Source: Heterotrichella gracilis
Taxonomy: Eukaryota > Sar > Xanthophyceae > Tribonematales > Xanthonemataceae
NCBI GenBank assembly: GCA_032358255.1
Contig: JAULBX010027716.1
Span: forward strand, 148,125 to 212,124
Length of the DNA stretch: 64,000 bases
Reading direction: 5' to 3'
Below are positions 1 through 61,031 of this stretch, in pieces (position 1 is the stretch's first letter; each line of letters begins with the position of its first letter). The notes beneath the pieces were generated by a model. The model did no database searches. It was not told where the DNA came from and was given only the letters and a program-made list of their open reading frames with translations. A program made the position numbers and the translations under genes.

Positions 1-3000
1 CTCCCCGGCGAGTAGCTGATGTCATCAATGTCAAGCTCCAGGGGCCCCAGCCCGTATCCCAACCCCAGCTCTTCCTCCCCATCCATCCCCGGGACTGCCC
101 CCCCTGCATGGCCACCGTTTTGGTGGTTGTGCTGCTGCGGTGGGGGGGCGGAGTATGGCCTGTCCTGGCCCCCGTTGGTAAGCTCCTCCAGGTTACTTGT
201 CGATGGGGTTGTTGAGGTGCGGCCGCCAAACAGCGGCTTCATATACCTGGATACGGGGTTTACGGTGTGGTTTAGGGTGCAGTTGTAGGGCAAATCGTAG
301 GGTGTCATTCGACAAAGGGGAGGTGCGGCCACCAAACAGCCGCTTGATGTACCCGGGTGAAGGGGAGGGGTTGGTTCAGGATTCAGGGGGCGGTGCAGGG
401 TGTGGTGTATGGAAATTGAGGATGTCATCTGAGAAAGCCTGTGCCATGCATCCTTTACAATGAGCGGCAATGGCGGCACAAGTCACACTGCCCAGATGAA
501 TTTACCCTAGTTTTTATACGCAGTGTATACCCTGCGTTCCTCTATTACTTTGCTGTTTCTCCCCAGCCTCCCCCATACATTGCGCATCCTCACCCCCCCC
601 CACCCCCATCCCCCCCCGCCCCCACACCCACCTCGCATCCACCATCTTCCACAGCATCTGGGTGCGAGATGGCTCCTCCAGGCTCCTCCCCTCAGCAATG
701 GCTGCCGCGCCCCCACCCCCGGGCTCCCTCAGCCTTGCGTACAGCCCGTCAAACAGAATTGCATCGCTGTCGCCCTCAAGGTTCAGGCGGCGAAGGAGGG
801 GGCCTGCAGAGGGGGGTGAGGGGGGTGGGGTGGGGGACATGGTGGAGGTGGGTAAATGGAGGCTGTGCCGGTGGTGTGCGTGTGAGGTGGGGTTATAATA
901 ACATAAAAAAGGGTGAATGAACCGGGTTCAGGCGGCGCAGGAGGTGCCTCTGTGGAGTGAAGGTGTGCATGTGTCAGTGCTGATAGTCTGCCTCAAAACG
1001 CGCAGCACTGCGGCGGCCAGAAAGCACGGGAGAGGCCCCCTCCCTCTCCAGTCCACTTCCACCCCTCCCACCGGTCAGGCCCGCAAACCACCAGCACCCC
1101 TGCATGAGCCCCCCAAACACCAGCGTGGTCACCACCACAATGAACAGCGTGGCTGTCTCTATGGCGGGGATCCCCTCCTCCCCTGATTTGGACGGCAAGT
1201 TGACGGCCAGACCATACGCCACCGCCCCCCTCAGCCCGCATGCCCACTGCATGAGCTGCAGGTGCTCAGGGATGGGCACGCGCCGCCCTGCGATGGGGGG
1301 TGGGTGGGTGTGAGGGGTGGGGTGGGGGGGCAGGTGCAGGGAAGTGGGTGGAGGTGCTTGAGATGGTCGGTAAGTTGGGGAGTGATGGGTGCAAGATTGC
1401 AGGCAGGAAAATGGCAAACTGATGGGTGAGACGTTGCCTGCAATTAATCCATTGGGCCCATGGACTAGGGCCTGCCCAGTCACCAGCGTCAAGATTTCAA
1501 AGAGGGTGTCCAACCCACAGCTTGTCCTGCCCCCGGCTGGGAGCGATTAGGGTTTAGGGTTGGGCCTGTGCCGCTCACCTAGATTGACCAGCTTTGCCAG
1601 GGGGAATATGTTACAGGCGCGCGACAGCAGGCACAGCGGGATGCCAGTTATGAGCAGGCCGATGTCCCACCGGTGCCTGTGGGTGGCAACCTGTGAAGAG
1701 GGGGAGCAGGGCGTTACGGTTTAGGGTTTAGGTTCAAGGTGCCTGTGGGTGGCAACCTGAAGAGAGGGGAGGGGGGTCCGGGAGGGAGGTAGGGGTGCGT
1801 GATGGCCCAAAGGACGCTGCTTATCCGGCTACAATGCCGAGTGGTAGGTAAGTAATAGCTATATTGTAATATCGTTCTTGAACAACTTATTCTGCAATTA
1901 TACAAATATGGCTGCTGAAACAAAAAAAGCCCTTCTACCGGCTTCCCTGTGTACTACCGGTGCCTGTGGGGCATATCCACCTGAAGGCAGGGGTAACGAC
2001 CAGGGCTGGGTGCATGGACGGCACAGGCAAAAGAAAGCGCTTCCAAGCCAAGATGAAGGCATGCTGTGAATGTTGCAAGAGCTGGTGCCAAGCTGGCAGA
2101 CGCGCCTTGGTGGTTCGTACACAGATTGCGAAGGGAAATAATTGTTGCACATGCAGCAGCCTGGCGCAATATTTTTCTGCTCCAAGCCTTCAGCAGCATT
2201 GGCCGCAGGCTTTGATGGCAACGATTTAGATGACTTTGGGGTACCATGGCTTGTTTCAGGAAAGCAAGTGTGGCGGGACAGTGGCCTCCCTCTTTGGAGG
2301 TCACTCACTACCATGCCACAGAGCTTCCCCGAGACACGGCATTGTACCCCAGATAATCCAAACCACCACCATCGGGGCCTGTGGCCAACGGCTGAAGACT
2401 CATACAAGTAGAACACTGCAATTGGCCTGGAGTGCAGGCATGCAAGCAAACTAATTGATGATGCGTTGACAAAGGTGCCAGTTGAGCGGACTGTGCTGCT
2501 ATGCACGTGAGTAACCACCAACGTTAGGGTTCAGGACTCAGGGTTTACGTGTTAAAAAAGCACCTGGGGACCCAGGTATGAGGGTGCAAATTCTCCTCAC
2601 ACAGGACGGCCAACGATTGCGACAACATGCTATGCATTTGGTATTCAAAAGTATATAACCCCTGTCTCATCATGATCAATTGCGGCGCACCTGCAGTCCC
2701 AGGTAAGCAAACACGAATGTTTCGCACAGGAAGGCCGCAAACTCAAACAGCTTCTTCAGCGTGATCTGCGCGTCTGAGGTCACGTTGTGGTACGAGTAGT
2801 GCGCGTGGCAGATGCCTGCAAGGAAGGGGGGGAGCGGGAATAAACAATTAGATTGAAAATGGAGATAAGGATGCGAATAGTATTATGATACTTTTGCATA
2901 AGTAGCACTGTAGCACAGCGCTCACCTGTTCAGAACAGCACCAATGCCCCACACAACCCCTGCACCTCATGTTCAGGGTGTAGGGTCAGGTGTACGGTAG

Positions 3001-60500: not shown

Positions 60501-61031
60501 GCAGGGCTTTCAGCTGAAAGGCGATACCCTAGCCAGGGGTGTACAGGCTGGAGGGCCTGCGCAGGAGGCAGGCATTGAGCAATGCTGGAGTATCATGTTT
60601 TCAGCCCTGGTTATGAGGGTCAAGAGGGTCAAGTACAACCTCAGGATTGGTGTTAGGCCAGCCAGGGCAGACCTGATGGGGCACCCTGCGCGTGCGTAAC
60701 TCTTAATCTGGCTGCACTGCTGCATTTCAATGCATGCACACATGTGTGTGACCCCCGTAAGGAGTCCTCGCCCGGTGTGCGGAACCCTAAGTAAGGGATT
60801 CAAGTGCGCTCACCTTGCAGGCTGGTGCGGGCGGAGGAGCGCTCGTGGCGGCGCGCAGCGCGCGCAGCGTGGTCAGCACCTGCCGCTGGCGCATGATGGG
60901 TGCGTGGTGACGTGGCTGCCAAGCTGGCACCGCCATGCTCTGCTCACCATGCCCCAGTCGCCCCCCATGTCCCGGCCCAGGGCTGGGCAGTGCTGCAGGT
61001 GGGGTTATCACCCCTTCACCTGAGGACGAGC
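51536..61031 (-). CDS. Type IA DNA topoisomerase I (TopA) with C-terminal AT-hook and HMG box, probably organellar
   Basis: Relaxes negative supercoils by cutting one strand through a 5'-phosphotyrosine. Exons: 60814-61031, 60299-60487, 59610-59873, 59084-59291, 58285-58409, 57715-57973, 57251-57402, 56802-56942, 56342-56575, 55982-56134, 55462-55609, 55120-55262, 54526-54706, 53552-53685, 52872-53060, 52485-52689, 52061-52194, 51536-51655; over 1,060 residues, all phase-consistent. Motifs: Toprim [19 protein letters not shown] and [28 protein letters not shown]; active-site tyrosine in [30 protein letters not shown]; one CxxC...CSTYPAC zinc ribbon; TopA C-terminal repeats ([25 protein letters not shown]). 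Beyond these are [10 protein letters not shown] (AT-hook) and an HMG-box-like segment, [19 protein letters not shown] to [17 protein letters not shown]. An acidic G/E-rich insert lies in exon 56342-56575. The start codon is upstream of 61031 and was not found. The A/R/P-rich leader suggests organelle import. Confidence 0.92.
53061..53330 (-). repeat. Two copies of a topoisomerase exon acceptor edge
   Basis: The 5' edge of exon 52872-53060 ([14 protein letters not shown], with CTGCAG) recurs at about 53128-53200 and, shorter, at about 53285-53330, with a GGGGTTGGATTAATTGCATG-type spacer repeated between copies. A similar copy of the 5' edge of exon 53552-53685 lies at about 53800-53890. Confidence 0.75.
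54015..54525 (-). repeat. Three tandem copies of the zinc-ribbon exon's 3' end and donor
   Basis: Exon 54526-54706 ends with [21 protein letters not shown]...DDDLVQ and a GTGAGTG donor. Near-identical copies of this last third, each with its own donor, follow at about 54359-54462 and 54155-54256, and a more decayed one at about 54015-54107, roughly every 150-200 bp, separated by CCCTAAACC-rich sequence. They lack the first CxxC and start in intron-like sequence without a good acceptor, so they are probably not exons. A copy of the exon's 5' edge lies upstream at about 54771-54830. Confidence 0.85.
54746..54768. repeat. Telomere-like tract (three TTTAGGG units)
   Basis: TTTAGGG repeated three times, lying exactly between the real 5' edge of the zinc-ribbon exon and its upstream copy. 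It is the clearest case of a telomere-like tract at a duplication junction. Confidence 0.9.
57403..57575 (-). repeat. Two copies of the acceptor edge of the active-site-tyrosine exon
   Basis: The plus-strand pattern GTAGGTGATCAC followed by TCGCCTGCAG occurs at the true exon edge (57384-57408) and again at about 57467-57492 and 57547-57572, with a period of about 82 bp. GGGTTTAGGGTT-like sequence lies between the copies. Confidence 0.85.
58410..58830 (-). repeat. About four tandem copies (~105 bp) of an acceptor edge
   Basis: The 5' edge of exon 58285-58409 (GRVQSVAL with CACAG acceptor) is repeated upstream with a GCATGCACCTTATACCCTTA segment at about 58442, 58547, 58651 and 58770. Copies code [17 protein letters not shown] fragments and keep a CACAG or CCCAC acceptor-like end. 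Similarity falls with distance from the exon. Confidence 0.85.

Follow-up and report, generated by a model that had tools for sequence, protein, structure and literature searches.

Copies of exon edges in the introns of a Heterotrichella gracilis assembly and the telomere-like sequence found between them

Introduction

Several genes in a 64,000-nucleotide stretch of an algal assembly filed as Heterotrichella gracilis (GCA_032358255.1, contig JAULBX010027716.1; hereafter the window) have introns in which the edge of the adjoining exon, splice site included, appears again, often accompanied by TTTAGGG tracts. The locus raises the question of whether such copies exceed chance, whether they extend beyond the window and what kind of event would leave them. 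Ideas about intron growth and about short duplications at breaks commonly derive from a handful of examples. Here, about one intron in ten of the sampled gene models (40/390, 11 of them in the window) holds a duplication that can be dated, and in 20/42 separated pairs, about half, a telomerase-like mark lies between the copies. The material is a natural experiment that bears on break repair, on the tolerance of splicing for strong decoys close by and on a possible role of gene architecture in steering breaks. With a confidence just short of even, we read the copies as scars of staggered double-strand breaks across exon-intron junctions, filled in and rejoined with telomerase-made filler.

Exon edges recur in the adjoining introns

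The window covers bases 148125-212124 of contig C519 in a 68.5-Mb assembly of 903 contigs. The sample comprised 24 loci of this one assembly, namely the window and 23 of 25 fetched stretches. Left out were L001, which falls inside the window, and L002 and L005, excluded on account of their G+C (0.37 and 0.35); the latter two (contigs C1 and C100) also lack near direct repeats and are possibly contaminants. Genes were called with a self-written finder, trained on the sequence itself and then run with a stricter exon penalty on the 24 loci. It returned 48 genes, 441 exons and 390 introns, counted in genes with 300 or more coding bases (median intron 288 bp); the trained splice sites read CAG/GTGAG at donors and TGCAG/G at acceptors. 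The models rest on these predictions, on Pfam domains and, for LPAAT, on homologous proteins, with no RNA behind them.

The first and last 50 bp of every exon of at least 60 bp were aligned to the exon's own adjoining intron. At a score of 40, a copy was found for 41 of 680 testable edges (22/338 donors and 19/342 acceptors). The window contributed 12/168 and the other loci, which are the fairer sample, 29/512. None of the controls gave a match at this score, be it the reverse complement (0/680), introns of other genes (0/680) or segments lying 100-150 bp inside exons (0/421). At a score of 30, copies were found for 34/342 and 35/338 edges, with one match each in three of six controls; at 32 or more, for 60/680 edges in 23 of 47 gene models, 19 of these edges falling in 6 of the window's 8 models. 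The three cut-offs were set after the first results were in. A looser gene set gave 42/721 edges with a copy, and clustering of copies by gene was not significant (p 0.057).

Introns of 250 bp or more were also scanned with 50-bp probes, low-complexity ones being skipped. Matches were most frequent at the exon edge (32/202 and 33/198 introns, against 0 and 0 for the reverse complement). Probes placed 100-150 bp inside exons gave none (0/123 and 0/133), and deep-intron probes gave 10-13 matches of 202-210, with 1-3 for the reverse complement. In a self-BLAST of the window, 28 of the repeat pairs were near (<1.5 kb; 27 direct, one inverted) and 4 were far. The automatic edge test misses the NHE donor array and the edges at LPAAT 16462 and topoisomerase 53705, because the gene finder took a copy for a small exon; one counted edge of the window (54371) sits on what is probably a copy predicted as an exon. 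The exon-edge copies are thus real, extend beyond the window and lie far above chance.

Anatomy of the copies

Among the 60 alignments scoring 32 or more, 46 span the splice site, and the splice dinucleotide is intact in 34 of these 46 copies (GT 18/23, AG 16/23). Copies scoring 40 or more, once extended (n=51), include 49 bp of exonic and 22 bp of intronic sequence at the median. Original and copy lie within 5 bp of each other in 8 cases, 6-40 bp apart in 17 and more than 40 bp apart in 26; the 43 separated pairs are read here as copies with filler between them, as opposed to abutting duplications. The first-pass annotation, made from the letters of the window alone, had proposed that the copies create arrays of decoy donors and acceptors. 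As far as sequence goes, this holds, since 14/23 donor and 13/23 acceptor copies match the score of the true site to within 2 units.

Gaps of this kind, and copies lying about 100 bp away, would also be expected from template switching or polymerase-theta type templated insertion, in which a broken end copies a nearby junction and is joined with filler. Orientation speaks against that explanation: snap-back synthesis should give inverted copies, and near repeats over the 24 loci were 120 direct against 17 inverted (17/137 near pairs) with a spacing mode of 100-120 bp, while no edge (0/680) had an inverted copy. Nor does templated insertion predict telomere filler, and we regard it as quite unlikely. 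Two fetched stretches stand out for their repeats: L021 holds 14 direct repeats with a range above 1.5 kb in 10 kb, the most among the stretches compared, and L009 combines 25 CCCTAAA motifs, all on a single strand, with 18 near direct repeats in 10 kb.

Another possibility is the Rogers model, in which introns are born when an exonic AG-GT segment is tandemly duplicated. Its raw material, tandem duplication near splice sites, is present, and one potato case crosses an intron-exon border (PMC4974935). The in-register copy at the opposite splice site that such an origin calls for was found in 0/46 cases, however, and among 332 introns in-register similarity at 12/25 identical bases occurred 3 and 7 times, against 4.2 and 5.3 expected from shuffled pairs. 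We therefore rejected intron birth of this kind as highly improbable. Because in-register copies are absent, existing introns appear to have grown and none to have been born.

In the window, Pfam domains run across joined exons of the Na/H exchanger (PF00999), acyltransferase, MnmA (PF03054), VTC (PF09359) and topoisomerase IA genes. The CCAR-type model carries DBC1, LAIKA and SAP domains (PF14443/PF19256) plus a second VTC domain; its 30 exons are over-joined, because the finder fused the CCAR-type gene with a second VTC-domain gene. Cases in the window, gene by gene, are as follows.

2924..3233, minus strand: NHE-type exchanger gene (PF00999), donor array; edge of exon 3194-3522 and about 3 intron copies, period about 90 bp, telomere-like tracts between (TTTAGGG at 3160)
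214-250, copy 320-356, minus strand: NHE gene, acceptor edge 246; CCCTAAA-like sequence between
1672-1706, copy 1738-1771, minus strand: NHE gene, acceptor edge 1690; telomere tract at 1720 between
4582..4732, copy 4691-4732, minus strand: NHE gene, acceptor edge 4621; intervening stretch not telomere-like
Copy 15239..15290, minus strand: LPAAT gene, acceptor edge 15061; weak, identity 0.73, outside the BLAST list
Copy 15543..15603, minus strand: LPAAT gene, acceptor edge 15507; homologous proteins match the true exon better over the same residues
16280..16498, minus strand: LPAAT gene, donor edge of exon 16462-16531 copied at 109-bp intervals; TTTAGGG at 16349, 16422 and 16443
16842-16872, copy 16730-16760, minus strand: LPAAT gene, donor edge 16846; self-BLAST and edge test
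Copy 20235..20260, plus strand: MnmA gene (PF03054), acceptor edge 20541; weak, score 37 over 26 aligned bases, outside the BLAST list
23173-23224 and 23355-23406, minus strand: VTC gene, repeat of 52 bp; each of the two units predicted to be coding, ambiguous
23513..23765, copy 23704-23765, minus strand: VTC gene (PF09359), acceptor edge 23554
43460-43537, copy 43567-43643, minus strand: CCAR-type gene (PF14443/PF19256), acceptor edge 43528; TTTAGGG x2 at 43540-43553 between
43802-43857, copy 43699-43754, minus strand: CCAR-type gene, donor edge 43800; telomere-like stretch between
44405-44467, copy 44241-44301, minus strand: CCAR-type gene, donor edge 44418; self-BLAST and edge test
53019..53379, minus strand: topoisomerase IA gene, acceptor edge 53060; edge plus about 2 more copies at a 124-bp period, array free of the TTTAGGG motif
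53601-53690, copy 53799-53886, minus strand: topoisomerase IA gene, exon start region; part of the copy taken for a small exon by the gene finder
53984..54626, minus strand: topoisomerase IA gene, donor-edge array; about 4 copies, TTTAGGG-like stretches between
54652..54830, copy 54767-54830, minus strand: topoisomerase IA gene, acceptor edge 54706; TTTAGGG x3 at 54746-54766 between, the clearest case
57382..57573, minus strand: topoisomerase IA gene, acceptor edge 57402; edge seen three times, repeated every 84 bp, with units that include telomere-like sequence
58388..58828, minus strand: topoisomerase IA gene, acceptor edge 58409; about 4 units of 106 bp in all
58929..59136, copy 58929-59021, minus strand: topoisomerase IA gene, donor edge 59083; TTTAGGG-rich stretch between
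59263..59428, copy 59391-59428, minus strand: topoisomerase IA gene, acceptor edge 59291; self-BLAST and edge test

Repeats are present at every place for which the first-pass annotation had claimed exon-edge copies, two of them weak (MnmA edge 20541 and LPAAT 15239-15290). Further cases in the window are 214/320, 1672/1738, 4582/4691, edge 15507, 16730/16842, 53601/53799, 54652/54767, 58929/59042 and 59263/59391. In the printed regions of the LPAAT alignments, the true exon at 15508 is matched by 8/9 homologues, two of which align to its copy at 15597-15547 as well, though more poorly; at 16533 the true exon is matched by 9/9 homologues and the copy additionally by two. The VTC pair at 23173-23406 may be a retained in-frame duplication or the product of a mis-spliced model.

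Telomere-like sequence favours the gap between copies

Six contigs (C70, C140, C526, C609, C717 and C770) open, within their first 4-7 bases, with perfect, outward-facing TTTAGGG x6 arrays; these six are the arrays that were placed relative to contig ends. Since they start the contigs and face outward, TTTAGGG is the telomere repeat of this genome. The window contains 65 TTTAGGG motifs against 7.1 expected. Over the 24 loci, introns hold TTTAGGG/CCCTAAA at 1.25 per kb, as against 0.41 for sequence outside gene models and 0.012 for exons. Within introns, the 50 bp at either end are dense in the shorter TTAGGG/CCCTAA.

Of the copy-bearing edges, 35/60 have a telomere motif no more than 80 bp away, as do 104/608 of the others (odds ratio 6.8, p 2e-11). 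The same comparison among introns of 250-650 bp, at score 40, gave 22/38 against 73/332 (p 1.4e-5). Intervening stretches of 12-150 bp were telomere-like in 19 of 39 cases, compared with 211 of 2340 position-matched intron segments; their mean score against a perfect telomere array was 11.4 (n=39), versus 6.2 for the matched segments, with a p value (8e-11) that is overstated because the control segments were redrawn repeatedly from 332 copy-free introns. Most telling is the paired test, in which 20/42 intervening stretches and 6/42 equal-length outer flanks were telomere-like (p 1.6e-4). All p values are nominal, since edges within one gene are not fully independent. The first-pass statement that telomere-like tracts often sit at or between the junctions was thus borne out. 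Given the excess at edges and the preference of telomere sequence for the gap between copies, neither of the two outcomes set beforehand as fatal to the first-pass claim, no edge excess or randomly placed tracts, was found in the 24 loci.

Telomere-like tracts might conceivably have come first, at intron ends, with slippage or unequal exchange there duplicating the adjoining edge later. The general enrichment of the motifs in the outermost 50 bp of introns at both ends, the 104/608 edges that have a motif and no detected copy, and the tract found inside the repeated unit of some abutting arrays all fit such an order of events. In gapped pairs, on the other hand, the tract occupies the space separating the copies much more often than the flank past the outer one (the 20/42 against 6/42 of the paired test), and we consider a tract-first origin rather unlikely. 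Because telomere sequence favours the gap over the outer flanks, it most likely came with the duplication. A search for older copies hidden behind telomere tracts gave no sub-threshold signal (mean score 15.4 versus 15.1, p 0.51).

A telomere strand polarity directed away from exons was suggestive at first and was then rejected, as donors are even (40 TTAGGG and 45 CCCTAA in the first 50 bp). The last 50 bp of introns contain 43 CCCTAA and 7 TTAGGG; this bias near acceptors may reflect only avoidance of AG. Introns also shift from G-rich to C-rich, with GGG at 38 per kb in the first tenth and CCC at 38.7 per kb in the last.

Age, drift and splicing

Mismatches between copy and exon number 57/651, 45/658 and 118/652 at the three codon positions. 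This pattern fits a neutral intron copy facing a constrained exon, and divergence should therefore measure mainly the time since duplication and not copying error. The exonic parts of the 41 copies diverge by 10.6% on average, with less than 5% in 4/41; none of the 51 extended copies is below 4%, and two are at 4-8%. Single-age models at 0.11-0.14 fit these values (Kolmogorov-Smirnov p 0.17-0.92, best 0.92 at 0.13), one at 0.10 does not (p 0.009), and a steady-input model fits less well (p 0.023). The duplications look like the outcome of one or a few past episodes, with steady input the less likely history; loss of identical copies during assembly is possible, and unlikely for copies of about 50 bp. 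The first-pass view of an ongoing process thus found no support in the divergences, and its claim that copies decay with distance from the exon amounts to a trend (Spearman -0.25, p 0.08, n 51).

Retention of the copies for a role in splicing regulation would agree with the splice dinucleotides intact in 34/46 copies and with a shortage of true-to-copied splice-site distances divisible by three (8/46, nominal p 0.013, found post hoc). The figure of 34/46, however, about equals neutral drift at 0.88 identity, and synonymous drift of the exon accounts for the excess of third-position mismatches. A splicing role for the copies is accordingly very hard to credit, and selection on them is not supported, the codon-position pattern being one of drift.

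Copies concentrate at exon-intron junctions

Near-repeat clusters (n=83) fell at exon edges in 64 cases, inside introns in 9, outside genes in 3, between exons in 3 and in mixed settings in 4. For comparison, duplications were placed uniformly in a simulation that kept the observed spacing, used an assumed divergence and applied identical detection. Uniform placement gave 498 edge to 552 internal clusters (0.90 to 1), against the 64 and 9 observed (nominal p 6e-13), in a simulation that takes copy length as equal to spacing, which favours detection. The probe-based check agrees in direction, with simulated detection of 0.96 versus 0.83.

These counts bear on the simplest alternative, that ordinary short tandem duplications arise everywhere and are seen at edges because they are tolerated there and one side is conserved, with no targeting. 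The copies do drift neutrally, and duplications internal to coding sequence would be purged, in keeping with the mere 3/83 exon-exon clusters. The ratio of edge to intron-internal clusters, so far from that of uniform placement, and the much larger share of introns matched by edge probes than by deep-intron probes both argue against it, and it leaves the telomere filler unexplained. Already disfavoured on these grounds, untargeted duplication seems to us unlikely. A G-rich outward strand was rejected as the cause of targeting (0.338 at hit versus 0.335 at unhit edges, p 0.55); C content is somewhat lower at hit edges (0.154 versus 0.188, p 0.013).

A proposed origin in staggered breaks with telomeric filler

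Break repair with telomere-type additions, already suggested in the first-pass annotation, remains the best reading in view of the edge excess and the telomere sequence between copies. We picture nicks on opposite strands, about 30-120 bp apart, that would flank a splice junction and leave overhanging ends. Fill-in of both ends would duplicate the stretch between the nicks in direct orientation (at the median about 50 bp on the exon side and 20 bp on the intron side), and telomerase would sometimes add TTTAGGG units before rejoining, so that telomeric filler would separate the two copies. The splice site nearest the exon, presumably the one in use, would restore the original message, the second copy would leave with the intron and the gene would survive. 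Each event would lengthen the intron by about 100 bp and add one decoy splice site, and later unequal exchange might turn some pairs into arrays. Of all this, the sequence statistics show the copies with their orientation and spacing, the bias toward junctions, the telomere filler and the neutral drift; staggered breaks, telomerase and the choice of splice site belong to the interpretation.

Several observations weigh against this scheme. The copies are too old for microhomology to be read at the breakpoints. Intervening stretches that are not clearly telomere-like number 20/39 in one test and 22/42 in the other, and the telomere strand of the filler is mixed, with 7 G-strand and 6 C-strand cases on the donor side and 0 and 6 on the acceptor side. 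Finally, a staggered-break model by itself gives no reason for the junction preference. An extension to account for that preference, possible and on balance doubtful, would make junctions break hotspots through transcription- or splicing-linked nicking, sealed by telomerase and a fill-in partner; by extrapolation, thousands of introns would have been lengthened, perhaps in one episode, and decoy splice sites seeded genome-wide. If true, telomere machinery would be a motor of intron growth.

Relation to known systems

Break-associated interstitial telomeric sequences are short internal telomere repeats, sometimes with direct duplication of the flank, which in the horse was attributed to staggered breaks (PMC2246262, PMC7215372). 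Insertion with flank duplication was reported at 3/66 horse, 6/130 rodent and 4/25 primate loci. In the alga, too, the repeat unit is the species' telomere repeat, and the sites bear marks of end modification, both duplication and filler. Duplication is a minority outcome in the mammalian cases, however, and intron placement in human was called compatible with random insertion, whereas the algal tracts are concentrated in introns, at intron ends and between splice-junction copies.

Small tandem duplications arise when the telomere complex CST, together with Pol alpha-primase, fills in 3' overhangs (PMC8355091). These are short and direct, as here, are attributed to fill-in at staggered breaks and involve an enzyme that is a telomere complex; the algal copies share the direct orientation and short unit and are closely spaced. 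That work differs in using Cas9 breaks in human and mouse cells, and the passages of it consulted mention neither telomeric filler nor a splice-junction preference. Intron gain by tandem duplication, described for a potato RdRp gene (PMC4974935) and in Drosophila (PMC2891723), likewise involves duplication near or across an intron-exon border, with existing splice signals reused in the potato case. The algal pattern departs from it in that existing introns grow and no new intron with in-register copies is seen.

The telo boxes of Arabidopsis and rice are also short plant-type telomere motifs scattered in genes (PMC3022908). They are enriched in 5' untranslated regions and not in introns (in Arabidopsis, 150.7 per Mb of introns versus 155.2 genome-wide for an 8-base motif), whereas in the alga the 7-base motif counted is commonest in introns, at the 1.25 per kb given above. 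Direct repeats at intron-exon borders have been described by Rogers and Bendich (2025, PMC11782384); theirs measure 4-30 bp and relate one border of an intron to the other, unlike the present ones, mostly 30-130 bp and relating an edge to its own intron. As to introners, the window has 4 far against 28 near repeat pairs and edges match introns of other genes in 0/680 cases, the whole genome not having been scanned for filler families. No report of exon-edge copies with telomere filler was found among the titles and abstract openings listed, with subscription papers and preprint servers outside the scope. The ingredients are known, and the density and the junction targeting look new.

Other observations

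LPAAT protein matches, where named among those listed, are mostly to green algae (e.g. Parachlorella, Micractinium and Coccomyxa); the top one is labelled Tetradesmus obliquus, identity is 61-74% in the best 40 of the 120 listed, and lower-ranked matches among the 120 include mosses and liverworts. The source might, as a guess, be a trebouxiophyte or close to that group. The assembly search found no match to plastid rbcL, the whole-genome collection held no relatives of the assembly, and a scan of viral_contigs gave 13 pattern matches with none confirmed. Light-harvesting proteins are encoded in the assembly, with 43 matches. In the window, the second VTC-domain gene, at 34539-41918, apparently adjoins the CCAR-type gene, with a border that is an estimate. 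A VTC intron contains, at 23787-23945, an imperfect palindrome of about 160 bp, with 75% identity to its own reverse complement.

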